Assembly: GCF_900113655.1 (NCBI RefSeq)
Contig: NZ_FOQF01000003.1
Span: 1-64,000, forward strand
Length of the DNA stretch: 64,000 bases
Source of the DNA: Pseudobutyrivibrio sp. OR37
Lineage (GTDB): Bacteria > Bacillota > Clostridia > Lachnospirales > Lachnospiraceae
Direction: 5' to 3'
The position numbers and the translations under genes were made by a program. The notes under the pieces were generated by a model. It searched no databases and was not told the DNA's origin. It saw only the letters and a list, made by a program, of their open reading frames with translations. This document shows, one piece after another, positions 11,384 to 18,515 of the stretch (position 1 is its first letter; each line of letters opens with the position of its first letter).

Positions 11384-12499
11384 TTAAAATAGCCTCCCAT
11401 TATTATTTTTAGATTGAAGACCAACATTTAACACAATTCCGATACCAAAATAAACAGTAACAAGTGATGTCAAACCATAACTAACAAAAGGTAATGGTAA
11501 ACCTGTATTTGGCATAAGTCCTGTAACAACACAGATATTAACAAAACTTTGGAAGCCTATTAATGTAGCCATACCAACACAAATTAGTTTTCCAGATATA
11601 TCTTTAGCTCTTTTAGCCAAAAGCAATATCTCTATAGTGATAAAGAAAATTAAAGCAATAATTATAGCTGAACCAATAAATCCTAGTTCCTCGCCTGCAA
11701 CAGCGAAAATAAAATCAGTATGAGGTTCTGAAATATAATTACCATTCTTAACAGAATCAAAGGCTTCATTGCCAAGTCCCTTACCTAGTAGCTGTCCTGA
11801 ACCTATCGCCATAATAGAATTCTGTTGCTGGTAAGAGCTAGATGGATATTTCTCTGGCTTAAGCCATGCAAGGATACGCAAGCCCTGGTATTCATCAAGA
11901 ATTGTTTGTCCCTCTCTACTAATCAGAACAAGCAATATAATTATTGATGGAATCGAAACACCAAGTACCGCTCCAACTAGCTTATAACTAACTCCTGTTA
12001 CAAATATCATAACACAAATAATCATCATTGTGACTATTGTAGTTGATAAATCTGGCTCTTTTAGTATTAAAATTAAAGGTGCAGCCGATAAAACTATTGT
12101 CAAAGCTAGAATTTTAGGCTTGTTTATATCTTCCTCGAACATCATAAAAAACCAGGCGAAAAACAAAATAAGTAAAATCTTACCTAACTCTGATGGCTGA
12201 AATCTGATACCTACATCAATCCATCTGGTAGCACCACCGGTTTTATCACCGAATAACAATACAGCTACAAGAAGCAAAATTACAAATCCATAGAAAAACC
12301 AATGAAAATGCAATAAATAATCATAATCAATTAATGCCATAATGGTCATTATAAAAATGCCCAAAATCATACCTAGAATTTGCTTTTGCTGGTTTGACTC
12401 ATTGGCACTTCCAATTACGAAAATTCCGATTATGGTAAGAGCTATAACGGCAATTATTAATTTAATATCAAGATTTTTAAATTTATAATTATGAAACAT
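11384..12499 (-). CDS. rodA: SEDS glycan polymerase RodA
   Basis: RodA polymerises lipid II into glycan strands for cell elongation with its partner PBP2. The 371-residue protein has about ten membrane helices. Family landmarks are GATRWIDVGIRFQPSELGKI, LKEPDLSTT, NSIMAIGSGQLLGKG, PHTDFIFAVAGEELGF and the end motif TGLPLPFVSYGLTSL. The catalytic Asp of SEDS proteins corresponds to the Asp in PHTDFIF or nearby loop residues. It lies in the mre cluster beside PBP2, so RodA is more likely than FtsW or SpoVE. It begins directly after the minC stop with no spacer. Confidence 0.9.
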   Translation of the reverse strand: MFHNYKFKNLDIKLIIAVIALTIIGIFVIGSANESNQQKQILGMILGIFIMTIMALIDYDYLLHFHWFFYGFVILLLVAVLLFGDKTGGATRWIDVGIRFQPSELGKILLILFFAWFFMMFEEDINKPKILALTIVLSAAPLILILKEPDLSTTIVTMMIICVMIFVTGVSYKLVGAVLGVSIPSIIILLVLISREGQTILDEYQGLRILAWLKPEKYPSSSYQQQNSIMAIGSGQLLGKGLGNEAFDSVKNGNYISEPHTDFIFAVAGEELGFIGSAIIIALIFFITIEILLLAKRAKDISGKLICVGMATLIGFQSFVNICVVTGLMPNTGLPLPFVSYGLTSLVTVYFGIGIVLNVGLQSKNNNGRLF

Positions 12500-13180
12500 T
12501 TATTTTATTCCTTTTAAAAGTCCACTTGAAAGTGGTTCTGCAAGCAATTCTTTATTCCAAACAGTGATTCCCATAGGTTCCTTAGCCTTACGATGAACTC
12601 TTAATGACCATTTTTCCTGAACCTTAATATCACCAGTAATTGTACCTATTTGAATATTTTTAGAATTAAGCTCTCCAGCCACAATATAGCAACCAGTATT
12701 ATCAGGATAGCCTGCATAAGCTGAACCTTCCAAATCACCAAAGACAATAACATTTCCCTTAGCTTTAACACTGGCCTTAGATTTTACATCTCCAAGGATA
12801 ACAATACTTGAATCAGATTCTATAATATCATTCTTAGTTACGCTGCCGCGGATGATTTTAGCATTCTCAAAAATATCATCCTTATAGAAGCGGTCTATCT
12901 GACCAAGCATTCTAGTATCCTTAAGCTCATTGTTTTCATTTAATAGGATAACCTTGATTTTGGAATTAAGTTCGATTGCCTGAATGAGAATAAGTCCTTC
13001 TTCGTTAGTAAGCTCTCTTCCAATTGTTTCAAGAATCATTGAGGTTTCACCGAAGAAATCTGCCGAAGAAGCAAATTTCTCGCAAACCTTTCTAACTAAT
13101 TCTTCAAAAGGAATTGTTCCATCCAGTTGCAAGGTTAATCCATATTTATTACTTTTTAAAATAACAGCCTCATTACTCAT
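12500..13180 (-). CDS. minC: MinC-like septum-site protein without RSGQ
   Basis: MinC blocks FtsZ assembly away from midcell and is normally brought to the membrane by MinD. The 226-residue protein has an N-terminal domain (about 1-100), then the C-terminal beta-helix (SIVILGDVKSKASVKAKGNV, then VFGDLEGSAYAGYPDN). The motif RSGQ at the start of the C-terminal domain, which contacts MinD in known MinC proteins, reads TKND here (about residues 114-117, after IIRGSV). Neither minD nor minE lies in the cluster; rodA follows directly. The fold assignment is firm, but the classical MinCDE oscillator role is doubtful. Confidence 0.8.
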   Translation of the reverse strand: MSNEAVILKSNKYGLTLQLDGTIPFEELVRKVCEKFASSADFFGETSMILETIGRELTNEEGLILIQAIELNSKIKVILLNENNELKDTRMLGQIDRFYKDDIFENAKIIRGSVTKNDIIESDSSIVILGDVKSKASVKAKGNVIVFGDLEGSAYAGYPDNTGCYIVAGELNSKNIQIGTITGDIKVQEKWSLRVHRKAKEPMGITVWNKELLAEPLSSGLLKGIK

Positions 13181-13197
13181 TTTTATTCTCCAATATT

Positions 13198-16038
13198 TTA
13201 ATCAGTAAACTCATTTCCTGAATTAGAAACTATATTTGCTTCTCCATCTAACAGGTCTTCTGTTTCAGTAACACCAAAGTAGTATGCCAAAATATCCTTT
13301 GAAACCTCTGCCGCATTATGAGAGGTATAACCATAGGCGATACGAGTTGCAATTGATACTTCAGGATTGTTATATGGTGCAAAACCAATAAACAAAGCGT
13401 GGTTAGGACGGTTAGATACCTGCTGCGCAGTACCAGTCTTACCAGCCACCTCTACAGAAAATCCATTAAAGGATGATAAGGATTCACAAACCATCCTCAT
13501 ACCATAGTGAACAGCATCCCATTCAGCAGTATTTAATACATCTACCTGATTACGAATGCTAGGCTTATAATCCTCTATAACATTACCATCTGCATCTCTT
13601 ACACTATCCAACAAAGTAAGATTGTAAACATTACCTCTACTAGCAATTGCTGTGGCGTATCTGGCCAAGCCAACTGTTGTAAAGTTATTATCAGACTGAC
13701 CGATGGCTGCCATGACAGGGTATTCAGTAGCAATATGAGGACTATTCTCCTCTATTTCTACACCTGTAGTTTCATCCAAACCGTAAAGTGAAGCGTACTT
13801 GGTGATTTTATCAATACCTTTTACATCATCATAAGCACCATCACCACCTGCAAGTCTCCAGCCTACTTCGTAGAAGAAGTAGTTACAAGAATCTCTGATA
13901 GCTTCTGAAACATTGATATTACCGTGATTGCTTGGGTAAATCCAACATTTAGGGTTGTTTGAAACCTTTGTAAACTGACCTAAATCGTTTATTTGTGAAG
14001 TAGTTGTAATAACACCTTCAGCAAGACCAGCTGTGGAACTTACAATCTTGAAGGTAGAACCAGGAGCCGTTCTCTGCTGTGTAGCATAGTTATAAAGTGG
14101 ATTAGCTGCGCTATTTGTAAGATAAGCATAATAATCCGAATCAACTGAATTGGCCAATTTATTGTTATCATAGCCAGGATAAGTAACCATAGCTAGGATT
14201 TCACCAGTTTTTGTATCAAGCATTACTGTAGAACCTGAACAAGGGTCAAGAGCAATCTGACCAGGTGTAATTTCAAGTGATTTTATCTTCTTTTTCATGA
14301 AATCAAAGGCTGTAATGCCTCCACCTGAAAGGGCTGCATAGTCTTCATCATCCTTTGATAAGATTCCCTGCTCGTATAAAATCAAGCAAAGCTGATTACC
14401 TGATATTCCATCGTCTAAAAGTAAATACTTATATACAAGTTTTTCAAAATTAACATCAGTAGAAAGATAATCAATTACATAATCTATCAAATCATTGTAA
14501 AGCTCTTCTGTATCTGCATACTTTGCCTGAGATTCATATTTGGTAATATCAATCCAGTTTTGTTCAATTGCATAAATCAAATATTTATTTACTGCCATTT
14601 GCTCAGATGTCCAGCTGGTCTGAACCTCTGAAGATGTATCAATAGCGCTTGCGTCAAAAATACCTAAGCTCTTAAGCTTTGTAACAATATAGGTAGAGTA
14701 TGCCTGATATTCCTTAGGCAATTCACTATATATCGCTTCGTTATTGGTGCGAAGCTGAGCCTTAAGGGTAGACAATACTTCCTTTTCCTTAGTCTCGTAG
14801 GCAGCTAAAACTGCTTTTTCAATATCCGAAGCATTCGGATCATTGAAAGCATTTGTATCTATTAACCCATTTTTTATTAATGAATAATAAACATCATATA
14901 TAGGAACTACTACATCTGATGATGAATTAATATTAGATTCCTTAATGTTTTGTATCTTAGAATACAAAATACCGGCAATCTCCTGCTCAAGCAAAATATA
15001 AGCAGCCTTCTGTAAATCCATATCAATAGAAAGATAAACATCATTTCCAGATTCTGATGCCTTATGATCACCCTCTGCAATTGTGTTACCTACACTATCA
15101 ACGTAAAGTGTTTCGTAACCCTTTGTACCTGAAAGATAATCATTCATGTACTTTTCAATTCCAGATTTACCAACAACATCAGTGGCTTCAACATTCTCAT
15201 CATTTTTTGATAGTTCTTTATATTCTGAAGTAGAAATCTGACCAGTGTAGCCAATGATATGAGCGAAATACTCGCTGTCTACATAACGACGAAGGGATTT
15301 TTGCTCTACATCAACACCAGTTAATTCGTTAATATTCTCCTTTATAAAAGCAACTGATTCGTCTGAAACATCTGATGCGATTACAGTGGAAATATATTTT
15401 TGATAGGAATTTTGGCCCATGTTGTAACGAACAACCATTATTTCATATCTAAGCTTTTTAGAGTACTTATCAGAAATATTGTAGACCTTTTCCCCCTGGA
15501 GATAATCCATAATCTGATCAGGAGTAGCTGTAGCCTCGTCAAATCCAAGCTTTTCATTATATTCAAGGTCATCGGGGCTGCTCTTACCAAAGACATCAGC
15601 TCTAAAACGCTGTAAGGATGAGCCCGAATTTAAAAATTGATACTGCCCAGAGGAATCAATAAATATTCCAAAATTGTTATCGATTCTATCACCGTTGGCC
15701 TCAAGCTTTTTGATGATACGACCAATTTCGCTATTTAATGATTTACTACGTTCTGCCTTAGAGCTGTAGGTTCCGTTATCCTGAATTGTGACAGCGTAAA
15801 CAAGCTCATTGTAAGCCAGCAAATTACCGTTTCTATCATAAATATTGCCTCTTGTGGCTGGAATTGTTTCAGTTTTTTCAAGTTTGAGATTGTAATTATC
15901 CTGGTATTCACTACCATTGATAATCTGCAAATAAAAAAGACGTGATATAAGAACAGTAGCAAATAAAACCATTGCTACTGAAACTACACGAATACGCGAC
16001 GAAAATAGGTTTTGTAAAAAGTCCTTAATAATTTCCAA
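13198..16038 (-). CDS. mrdA: Penicillin-binding protein 2 with large insertion
   Basis: PBP2 cross-links peptidoglycan during elongation. The 946-residue protein has one membrane helix (about 16-36) and an N-terminal pedestal with the R1-type motif PATRGNIYDRNG. The transpeptidase motifs are STFK (about 662), SCN (about 717) and KTGTAQ (about 866). Typical PBP2 proteins are 600-720 residues. The excess is a helical, acidic stretch between DMDLQKAAYILLEQEI (about 344) and GSTVMLDTKTGEILAM (about 600), where other PBP2s have only a short linker. The gene lies between mreD and minC and overlaps mreD by 14 bases. Confidence 0.9.
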   Translation of the reverse strand: MEIIKDFLQNLFSSRIRVVSVAMVLFATVLISRLFYLQIINGSEYQDNYNLKLEKTETIPATRGNIYDRNGNLLAYNELVYAVTIQDNGTYSSKAERSKSLNSEIGRIIKKLEANGDRIDNNFGIFIDSSGQYQFLNSGSSLQRFRADVFGKSSPDDLEYNEKLGFDEATATPDQIMDYLQGEKVYNISDKYSKKLRYEIMVVRYNMGQNSYQKYISTVIASDVSDESVAFIKENINELTGVDVEQKSLRRYVDSEYFAHIIGYTGQISTSEYKELSKNDENVEATDVVGKSGIEKYMNDYLSGTKGYETLYVDSVGNTIAEGDHKASESGNDVYLSIDMDLQKAAYILLEQEIAGILYSKIQNIKESNINSSSDVVVPIYDVYYSLIKNGLIDTNAFNDPNASDIEKAVLAAYETKEKEVLSTLKAQLRTNNEAIYSELPKEYQAYSTYIVTKLKSLGIFDASAIDTSSEVQTSWTSEQMAVNKYLIYAIEQNWIDITKYESQAKYADTEELYNDLIDYVIDYLSTDVNFEKLVYKYLLLDDGISGNQLCLILYEQGILSKDDEDYAALSGGGITAFDFMKKKIKSLEITPGQIALDPCSGSTVMLDTKTGEILAMVTYPGYDNNKLANSVDSDYYAYLTNSAANPLYNYATQQRTAPGSTFKIVSSTAGLAEGVITTTSQINDLGQFTKVSNNPKCWIYPSNHGNINVSEAIRDSCNYFFYEVGWRLAGGDGAYDDVKGIDKITKYASLYGLDETTGVEIEENSPHIATEYPVMAAIGQSDNNFTTVGLARYATAIASRGNVYNLTLLDSVRDADGNVIEDYKPSIRNQVDVLNTAEWDAVHYGMRMVCESLSSFNGFSVEVAGKTGTAQQVSNRPNHALFIGFAPYNNPEVSIATRIAYGYTSHNAAEVSKDILAYYFGVTETEDLLDGEANIVSNSGNEFTD

Positions 16039-16570
16039 TTCTATCAGAACCTTTCTTTTCTAATTTTTCTACCCAATTGTTTAAATGAAGAATAATATAA
16101 TAAACAAAAATGGATACAACTAATGTGTAAACAACCTCAGGTAAAATGATATTCATTAAGTAAAAGTAAAAATCATGCTGAGATCTGATAGCAAATAAAA
16201 CTAAAAATGTAATTATTCCATATATGAGATCACTTGTGCCAATAAGAATCATTGGCAGTCTAAGATCATCACCGAAAAATTGCTTTCTAAATAAACCATT
16301 TAGAAAGCCAATATACATATAAATCATTGCATAGGTGCCAAAAATACCGCCTGAAAAAATATCTAGCAATAGGCCAGAGAAAAATCCTATTACGGTACCA
16401 TATCTTCTGCCCTTCATAAAACCATAGGATGCAACGATACACACTAATATATTAGGTGTAACTCCTGCAAGACGAAGACGTGAAAAAACACCTACCTGCA
16501 GAAGAAAGCTTACATATATAACAACTGCAATTATGAGTACTCTTCTAATATATAGCTTAATGTCACTCAT
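16025..16570 (-). CDS. mreD: Rod shape-determining protein MreD
   Basis: MreD is a small membrane part of the elongasome. The protein, 181 residues from the ATG at 16570, has five or six hydrophobic helices. It ends in a basic, Lys-rich tail. Its start overlaps the mreC stop by 8 bases and AAGGAG lies 10 nt upstream inside mreC, so this start is preferred over one 20 codons earlier. A glycine-rich segment (GFFSGLLLDIFSGGIFG) matches MreD membrane signatures. Confidence 0.88.
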   Translation of the reverse strand: MSDIKLYIRRVLIIAVVIYVSFLLQVGVFSRLRLAGVTPNILVCIVASYGFMKGRRYGTVIGFFSGLLLDIFSGGIFGTYAMIYMYIGFLNGLFRKQFFGDDLRLPMILIGTSDLIYGIITFLVLFAIRSQHDFYFYLMNIILPEVVYTLVVSIFVYYIILHLNNWVEKLEKKGSDRIGNY

Positions 16571-17426
16571 TCTTGTAAGACTCCTTCTGCTGTAAAATAA
16601 CAAGAACATCTGAAAGATGTTTAAAATCAACTACTGGTGTAACTGTTCCAGATTTTGTTAGCTCATTTTCATCTAAATTGACGCTTGATACATATCCAAT
16701 CATTAAACCAGGCAAATATTTATCAGAAATATTTGAAGTGACTATAACATCACCTATAGCAACCTTATCCTCGTCATCATCCAAATTCGAAAACAGAATA
16801 AGATTATCACTGGTCATGTTTTCTAATGATCCAGAAACAATACAATTATCCTCTGTAGATGAAATAGTAGCACTTACATTTGAAGTATCATCAATGATAG
16901 CTCTAACAACGGCATATCCATCTCCAACAGATGAAACGATGCCCACAAGGCCACCATCAGCAATAACATTCATATTCTTTTCTATTCCATCCTTAGAGCC
17001 CTTATCAATAATAAAGGTATTAAACCAATTTGAGGTACCTTTACCAATGATTCTTGCTCCTGTAGTCTCATAATCATAGTATGTCTGGTCAAGTTCATAT
17101 AATTCCTGAAGCTCAGATAATTCCTTTATCTTAAGCTCCATATTGCTGATTGTAGAATTTAAATCATCAACCTGTGCTCTTAATTCTTCGTTTTCCTCAA
17201 CAAGCTCTTCCTTTGTCTTAGTATCAGCGGATGAAACTGCAATACTACTGCCAATATAATCTATTCCCTTTTGCATAGGAATAAACATGTGGTTTGCAAT
17301 AGTTTCAAGAGGACCACCAGAAAATCCTGTTGAATAACTAAAGAATAAAAGCATTATGCAAACAATAGATAAAATCATGAGTAAGTATTTACTTGGAATA
17401 CCACCACTCGCTTTTCTTTGTCTCAT
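16563..17426 (-). CDS. mreC: Rod shape-determining protein MreC
   Basis: MreC links MreB filaments to PBP2 outside the membrane. The 287-residue protein has a membrane helix at about residues 13-32 and a coiled coil at about 68-115 (many Glu, Leu and Lys in heptads). A beta-rich domain follows from about 120, including GKGTSNWFNTFIIDKGSKDG and VIADGGLVGIVSSVG. It is followed by mreD and preceded by mreB with 12 bases between, all in the usual order. Confidence 0.92.
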   Translation of the reverse strand: MRQRKASGGIPSKYLLMILSIVCIMLLFFSYSTGFSGGPLETIANHMFIPMQKGIDYIGSSIAVSSADTKTKEELVEENEELRAQVDDLNSTISNMELKIKELSELQELYELDQTYYDYETTGARIIGKGTSNWFNTFIIDKGSKDGIEKNMNVIADGGLVGIVSSVGDGYAVVRAIIDDTSNVSATISSTEDNCIVSGSLENMTSDNLILFSNLDDDEDKVAIGDVIVTSNISDKYLPGLMIGYVSSVNLDENELTKSGTVTPVVDFKHLSDVLVILQQKESYKNE

Positions 17427-17438
17427 ATTACCTCTTAA

Positions 17439-18452
17439 TTATTTAAAAATTCTATGTTTCATACCATAACCATAAATCTTGAATTTAGGATCTGAAAGCA
17501 CCTGACCAAGACCTCTTACGCAAGATTCCTGTGGTTCTTCAAAAGCATTAACCTTGATATTTGTAACCTCAGAGAATAAATCAGGAAGCTGATATAACTG
17601 AGATGTACCACCTGTAAGATAGATACCTGAATGAACAATATCTTTTGCAAGCTCTGGTGGAACCTTTTCAAGAATAAGCTTAACGTTAGTGCAGAAGGTC
17701 TCAAGATCTGCGCTAATTGCATTGTAGATTGTGTCGCTTTCGATTTCCATTTCAATTGGAAGTCCGCTTACCACATCACGACCTACAACAGTAAGCTTTT
17801 CTCCTCTTCCCTCTAGAGCAGAACCGATTTCCTCTTTAAGCTGCTTTGCAGTCTTTTGACCGATAACAAGATTGAAGTTGCGCTTTAAGTAAGTAACGAT
17901 TGATTCATCAATTTGGTTACCACCAAATGGAAGAAGCTCTGATAAAACAAGTCCTCCTAAAGAAATAACTGAAATTTCTGTAGTATCAGCACCTAAGTCT
18001 ACAACCATAACACCTGTAGGCTCAGAAACATCAAGACCTAAACCGATTGCTGATGCAATAGGCTTTTCGCATATACGAATTGAATGTGGCTTATTCTTAG
18101 ATTTGCTAAATAAGTCAGCAAAAGCCTTCTTTTCAACCTCTGTAATATCTGTAGGAACTGCAACTACAATGTCGCTTCCTTTGATTTTACCCTTTAAATC
18201 GTTTTCCAAAACCTGGAATAATAAAGTCTGCATGTTATCAAAATCTGCAATTACTCCAGAAACAATTGGAAATGAAACAGCTATAGTTTCAGGTGCCTTT
18301 TCATACATAGAATAAGCGCTATCACCGTATGAGTACATCTGATTTTTGTTAACAATAGCGATTGTATTTTTAATATTTGTAATCTGATTGTTAGAACCAC
18401 TAAAAACCTTTAGGTTCTGTGTTCCTATATCAATACCAAATGAATTGGCCAT
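17439..18452 (-). CDS. mreB: Actin-like MreB, divergent
   Basis: MreB forms membrane filaments that guide cell-wall elongation. The product is 337 residues from the ATG at 18452 with GGAGG 6 nt before it. The nucleotide motifs are recognisable but altered: phosphate 1 DIGTQNLKVF (commonly DLGTANTLVY), phosphate 2 VVDLGADTTEISVISLGG (GADTT for GGGTT), and adenosine loop GIYLTGGTSQL (GGT for GGG). Membrane-binding hydrophobics may lie in the N-terminus. Position at the head of mreBCD makes it the shape MreB; a specialised Mbl/MreBH-type paralog is possible. Confidence 0.88.
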   Translation of the reverse strand: MANSFGIDIGTQNLKVFSGSNNQITNIKNTIAIVNKNQMYSYGDSAYSMYEKAPETIAVSFPIVSGVIADFDNMQTLLFQVLENDLKGKIKGSDIVVAVPTDITEVEKKAFADLFSKSKNKPHSIRICEKPIASAIGLGLDVSEPTGVMVVDLGADTTEISVISLGGLVLSELLPFGGNQIDESIVTYLKRNFNLVIGQKTAKQLKEEIGSALEGRGEKLTVVGRDVVSGLPIEMEIESDTIYNAISADLETFCTNVKLILEKVPPELAKDIVHSGIYLTGGTSQLYQLPDLFSEVTNIKVNAFEEPQESCVRGLGQVLSDPKFKIYGYGMKHRIFK

Positions 18453-18515
18453 GACATTCCTCCATCTTATATATAAAAGTTTCTGCAAACAAAAATGCTC
18501 ACAATCATACAAATT

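Follow-up and report, generated by a model that had tools for sequence, protein, structure and literature searches.

The closest described relative of the system treated here is MinCDE of Escherichia coli, in which MinC has two domains, with the FtsZ-facing residues K9 and F42 and a C-terminal beta-solenoid. In E. coli and in Bacillus subtilis, FtsZ binding or inhibition suffers when K9 is substituted, according to passages of PMC11938149, and the sections of PMC6803595 and PMC5548801 on the interface describe a contact between the RSGQ motif of MinC and residues S148, D154 and I159 of MinD. The activity of E. coli MinC is strongly raised by MinD, as stated in part of a review (PMC6803595). 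In B. subtilis the pair MinCD is placed by MinJ and DivIVA. Two further cases depart from this scheme: MinC of E. coli can be taken over, through its C-terminal domain, by the prophage protein DicB (PMC4967827, in part), and FlhG, a flagellar ATPase of the MinD family, influences division in Campylobacter jejuni, which passages of PMC3228812 describe as being without MinC and MinE.

The gene examined here lies in a window of 64,000 nucleotides, the whole stretch of DNA that was analysed, from Pseudobutyrivibrio sp. OR37. Pseudobutyrivibrio is a rumen bacterium. Its MinC resembles that of E. coli in the two-domain architecture, K9, F42 and the beta-solenoid, and the position of minC is that of the MinCDE clusters of its own family (pbp2-minC-minD-minE-rodA); unlike these systems, the genus is without MinD and MinE (MinE was searched in 2 of 29 genomes) and the site that faces MinD reads TKND and is variable. 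The absence of MinE is shared with B. subtilis, which retains MinD, whereas Pseudobutyrivibrio does not. DicB offers a precedent for a partner other than MinD, but is a prophage protein. As in C. jejuni, FlhG occurs in the absence of a MinD that could partner MinC; in contrast to that organism, MinC is present here and FlhG does not have the aspartate of the MinC contact. Among the papers listed by a search of the open-access literature there was no account of a MinC-bearing, MinD-less genome in this group, which does not prove that none exists.

The minC locus and its product

The features of the locus are collected in Table 1. The minC product exceeds the Pfam cut-offs for MinC_C (64.4 bits, residues 110-189), MinC_N (36.0 bits) and MinC_N_1 (38.9 bits), and it is a divergent member of the family, since it misses the cut-off of the NCBIfam MinC equivalog TIGR01222 (56.4 vs 95.25 bits). 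An AlphaFold2 model computed from a 47-sequence alignment had a mean pLDDT of 86; confidence is low in the stretch that joins the two domains. When this model was compared with the PDB by Foldseek, the nine best matches were all MinC structures (including 1hf2, 4v02, 6riq and 5xdm). The C-domain gave TM-scores by target of 0.78-0.82 against 4v02, 6riq and 5xdm, while 1hf2 aligned over both domains with a poor overall superposition (TM 0.47-0.49), which is expected because the hinge between MinC domains is flexible. The first-pass annotation had called the protein a clear MinC by its C-terminal beta-helix, a reading borne out by the Pfam domains, the model and the PDB matches: it is a true, intact MinC, and the single true one in its genome (3.56 Mb, 99.99% complete). 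Another MinC_C match, below the threshold (G000:C51:119751-119849), lies in a 533-aa frame that is probably FapA, and similar matches occur in most Pseudobutyrivibrio genomes.

Table 1. Features of the shape-gene locus around minC (window coordinates)
Feature	Position	Strand	Remarks
minC, 226 aa	12500..13180	-	ATG at 13180, TAA stop at 12500-12502
MinC_N, FtsZ-binding domain, residues 6-77	12950..13165	-	Pfam match and alignment to E. coli MinC
MinC_C beta-solenoid domain, residues 110-189	12614..12853	-	Pfam and predicted structure
TKND, residues 115-118, E. coli RSGQ site	12827..12838	-	alignments
ELLAEPLSSGLLKGIK, C-terminal tail of MinC, residues 211-226; strongly conserved across Pseudobutyrivibrio	12503..12550	-
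rodA, adjoins minC stop	11384..12499	-
pbp2 (mrdA), upstream neighbour of minC	13198..16038	-
mreD	16025-16630	-	shape cluster
mreC	16563-17426	-	shape cluster
mreB/mbl	17439-18512	-	shape cluster

The gene order is mreB-mreC-mreD-pbp2-minC-rodA-mgsA-dacA, in which mgsA and dacA were named by inspection of the sequence and the others by profile matches. As had been read from the sequence, rodA follows minC directly and minD and minE are missing there, with zero bases between the minC stop and the rodA ATG; in relatives with MinD, minD and minE sit between minC and rodA. The order pbp2-minC-rodA was found in all 26 loci of the genus set (25 named relatives of the window MinC plus the window), with MinC proteins of 225-227 aa, and minC adjoins or overlaps rodA in 23 of them. 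Of the named relatives, 23 are labelled Pseudobutyrivibrio, and the rest are a Cellulosilyticum MAG and Butyrivibrio fibrisolvens 16/4, which is nearest to Pseudobutyrivibrio ruminis by 16S according to part of PMC6249431. In the latter (L235 383-4544) RodA and PBP2 are read in shortened frames of 288 and 861 aa, away from the locus end, perhaps owing to draft errors.

MinD and MinE in the genome and the genus

The whole genome was searched for minD and minE, and neither is present in this 99.99% complete assembly: nothing exceeded the 212.9-bit cut-off of the MinD model TIGR01968 (best 102.9 bits), and no MinE was found by profile search (best 12.7 bits, E 0.42). The best MinD-like proteins, named by inspection, are Soj, encoded beside parB (102.9 bits), and FlhG (90.6 bits), whose gene is placed between flhF and a PilZ-like gene. 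Within NCBIfam, FlhG scores highest with an archaeal MinD model, below the cut-off of that model. Five other TIGR01968 matches were considered as an alternative MinD and rejected, being nearest to ParA/RepA partition proteins, polysaccharide tyrosine-kinase (eps) or Mrp; all except the kinase fall below the cut-offs of their own families, and three were scanned as pieces of 38, 39 and 140 aa.

Across the genus, MinC was detected in 29/29 genomes with no stops within the match and MinD above the cut-off in 0/29, 21 of these genomes having a completeness of 90% or more and a contamination of 5% or less. The matches below the MinD cut-off correspond, by length and score, to Soj (~256 aa), FlhG (~291 aa) and a few weaker proteins. 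MinE was not found in the two genomes searched for it (G000 and G130). The loss of MinD is genus-wide in Pseudobutyrivibrio, and the loss of the partner is real.

Distribution of Min proteins in the family

A sweep of 298 genomes of the family (MinD threshold E 1e-42) found MinC, MinD and MinE together in 175 and MinC without MinD and MinE in 26. Five genomes have MinC and MinD without MinE, 32 have MinD and MinE but no MinC (with minD-minE between pbp2 and rodA in L189 and L190, the two loci that were read), four have MinD alone, six a weak MinD alone and 41 no min genes. In the remaining nine a weak MinC_C match was the only sign of MinC (six with nothing else, two with MinD and MinE, one with a weak MinE); such weak matches sit in frames of at least 467 aa and are probably FapA-like. 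Genomes without MinD have the weaker MinC_C scores (median E 1.3e-18 vs 4.7e-29). The 26 MinD-less genomes include G075 (L046 2550-4046, minus strand), which encodes a 499-aa fusion of MinC with a MinD-like domain whose Walker A is broken (GVGRNVGNTS, compared with GKGGVGKTT in MinD); judged from this motif, the natural fusion probably lacks ATPase activity. It is counted in the sweep and in the comparisons of the site, of K9, F42 and tail charge and of FlhG, and left out of the tree and identity analyses (n=25).

In all 26 MinD-less genomes minC lies between pbp2 and rodA, MinC itself having been left unlabelled by the script in five. MinD-bearing loci are ordered pbp2-minC-minD-(minE)-rodA, with minC, minE or rodA sub-threshold or off the locus end in some. 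The interval was also read in 18 loci, those with a shape-type pbp2 among the matches listed; among these, 13 relatives have a pbp2-rodA gap of 3-134 bases with no min gene inside, three (L177, L184 and L185) have a lone divergent MinD-like gene without MinC or MinE, and two are L189 and L190 with their minD-minE pair. Across the family the interval thus holds CDE, CD, C, DE, D or nothing.

On a FastTree of MreB, MreC, PBP2 and RodA from 147 loci, built from genes of the same cluster, rooted at midpoint and weak at some nodes, the MinC-alone genomes form 14 maximal groups and the MinD-less tips 22, counts that assume irreversible loss. By parsimony, the MinC-alone state requires 12-13 changes, and MinD 20-22. 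One of the MinC-alone groups, a clade with support 1.0, comprises ten genomes of nine sampled genera, two of the genomes being Pseudobutyrivibrio. MinC without MinD and MinE recurs within the family, and Pseudobutyrivibrio is one instance of it.

The site facing MinD

TKND aligns with R133-S134-G135-Q136 of E. coli MinC and with the same site in the T. maritima and A. aeolicus proteins. The first-pass annotation was right that TKND stands in place of RSGQ, and its numbering (about 114-117) was one residue low. The site was compared among all 26 MinD-less MinCs, all five from genomes with MinD and without MinE, and 99 of the 175 from MinCDE genomes, of which 98 were aligned (G049 was dropped owing to masking); these 98 are the 30 best scorers and others of weak or middle score, not a random sample. 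Exact RSGQ was found in 29/98 MinD-bearing and 0/26 MinD-less proteins (Fisher p 0.0005), the pattern [RK]xx[QED] in 70/98 and 7/26 (p 6e-5), and Q, E or D at the fourth place in 94/98 and 15/26 (p 4e-6), kinship being ignored in all three tests. The corresponding numbers for the five MinE-less proteins were 0, 3 and 3. A further pattern, devised after viewing the alignment, was present in 94 MinD-bearing and 12 MinD-less proteins. In the alignment no MinD-bearing relative carries exact TKND (0/98), a first-place T occurs in two of them (TNGQ and TDGE), and some MinC-alone proteins retain an RSGQ-like site (KNGQ, KDGQ). Since 69 of the 98 MinD-bearing relatives are also without exact RSGQ, this motif does not generally identify those MinCs of the family that have a MinD, and loss of its letters is by itself no proof of independence from MinD. 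The earlier proposal that joint loss of motif and partner points to a MinC working without MinD therefore stands as to the lost partner and an eroded site, and is not supported as to the RSGQ letters.

The erosion is seen in the conservation of the site. In four hand-picked MinD-bearing groups from the family alignment (two clades and two collections of neighbouring tips, used because the comparison genus with MinD, that of G291, has 3 genomes, too few) the site had mean conservation percentiles between 41 and 90, and its fourth place was Q, E or D in nearly all proteins; the corresponding value for the MinC-alone clade of ten genomes was 18, all four places being low-ranked. Over the 26 genus loci, variability within the protein peaks at residue 115, where the modal frequency is 0.23 (A, I, K, L, M, S, T or Y); residue 117 (D, E, H, K, N, Q or T) comes next, tied with 153 at 0.27. 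Conversely, residue 116 is K in 25/26 (0.96) and residue 118 is D in 22/26 (0.85), and the four positions are preceded by an invariant RGS and followed by an invariant SDSS. In Pseudobutyrivibrio the site that contacts MinD is no longer constrained at two positions out of four; as the other two are kept, some contact may remain, and a function may persist in part of the loop.

Selection and the FtsZ-facing residues

Median dN/dS values in the genus were 0.10 for MinC, 0.078 for RodA and 0.097 for PBP2, and within MinC 0.077 for the N-domain and 0.173 for the C-domain. These ratios are approximate, with pairwise dS near saturation in the genus and pairs limited to dS 0.05-1.5 (25 of 325 for whole MinC, 32-91 for its parts, 189 for RodA and 215 for PBP2). 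Purifying selection on MinC is clear, and 100 of the 226 residues are invariant over the 26 genus loci. The decaying minC considered as an alternative in the first-pass annotation is contradicted by a dN/dS close to those of PBP2 and RodA and by the retention of MinC in every genome of the genus.

Residues K9 and F42 of the window MinC align to K9 and F42 of E. coli. The former is K in 26/26 MinD-less and 95/98 MinD-bearing proteins, and the latter F in 25/26 and 97/98, respectively. The mean difference between C-domain and N-domain identity to the MinD-bearing set was -0.011 for 25 MinC-alone proteins vs +0.091 for the 98 MinD-bearing ones (p 8e-11, kinship ignored). Relative to MinD-bearing MinCs, constraint has thus moved towards the N-domain at the expense of the C-domain. 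An exception is a MinD-bearing clade of 17, in which C-domain identity is also below that of the N-domain, so the pattern is no proof of MinD loss.

The C-terminal tail of the Pseudobutyrivibrio clade, EPLSxGLLKxIK, is basic and, as we take it, resembles a membrane-targeting helix. A membrane anchor of MinC's own was nevertheless rejected: no difference in tail charge was seen between the 26 MinD-less and 98 MinD-bearing proteins (Mann-Whitney p 0.20), and basic tails also occur in the MinD-bearing clade of 17. Just ahead of the rodA start, the minC codons AAAGGA (window 12509-12514) resemble a Shine-Dalgarno site of rodA, and such a ribosome site would account for the conservation of the tail.

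Possible roles of a MinC without MinD

The reading that we favour, with a probability of roughly 0.58, is that MinC of this genus still antagonises FtsZ without MinD, having outlived its partners. According to this model, minD and minE would have been lost from a pbp2-minC-minD-minE-rodA cluster in the ancestor of the ten-genome clade while minC stayed. The N-terminal domain would still oppose FtsZ, the C-terminal domain perhaps acts on the FtsZ tail, and the protein, made together with PBP2 and RodA, would work as a dimer with no MinD-driven membrane recruitment or oscillation. Its positioning may depend on a dose-controlled brake or on some recruiter. As E. coli MinC needs MinD for strong activity, a MinD-free MinC could be weak.

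A recruiter could be FlhG or another protein that replaced MinD, a proposal that we regard as unlikely. FlhG is present in the genome, it occurs in 21/26 MinD-less MinC genomes vs 3/13 without min genes (Fisher p 0.001; 0.0004 without G075; kinship ignored), and the cases of C. jejuni and DicB described above set precedents; however, it is equally common in hand-picked MinCDE genomes (8/11) and so may mark motile lineages that retain Min genes. Elsewhere FlhG was found in 2/5 genomes with MinD and without MinE, 0/3 with MinD alone and 0/2 with MinD and MinE. Moreover, the position of D154, the MinD aspartate in contact with RSGQ, is D in 101/101 MinDs (CDE and DE loci) and Y in 34/34 FlhGs (21 from MinC-alone genomes and 13 from others), which makes a MinD-like contact with MinC unlikely and leaves another kind of contact possible, and four true MinC-alone genomes (G051, G055, G158 and G190) are without FlhG. 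On these grounds FlhG was rejected as a general substitute for MinD.

The location of minC between pbp2 and rodA in all 26 MinD-less genomes, and its adjoining or overlapping rodA in 23/26 genus loci, would suit a MinC that no longer acts in division and works instead for the elongation machinery of its cluster (PBP2-RodA-MreB). We consider this improbable, as the FtsZ-facing K9 and F42 are kept and the same place is occupied by MinCDE in relatives; the position is ancestral and holds no information on a new role. Least probable is a decaying relic on its way to the clean loss seen in the 13 min-free relatives among the matches listed: the weaker MinC_C scores of MinD-less genomes are in its favour, but the gene is stop-free in 29/29 genus genomes, with 100/226 invariant residues and a dN/dS of about 0.10, and it persists throughout a clade from which nine genera were sampled.

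A wider proposition can be put forward tentatively, and we would rather doubt than assert it: MinC may have been freed from MinD repeatedly in the family, becoming a stand-alone FtsZ regulator newly placed by a recruiter or by a dose brake tied to the expression of PBP2-RodA. This would add a third type of MinC system to MinCDE and MinCD-MinJ-DivIVA. The presence of MinC alone in up to fourteen groups and its clean loss in others constitute a natural experiment on MinC by itself, which shows the residues that stay, on the FtsZ side, and those that drift, on part of the MinD side, and MinD-independent MinC activity becomes testable with natural proteins. Besides these cases, the sweep recorded two MinD and two MinE matches in each of two genomes (G002 and G174) and two MinC matches above the cut-off in another (G325).
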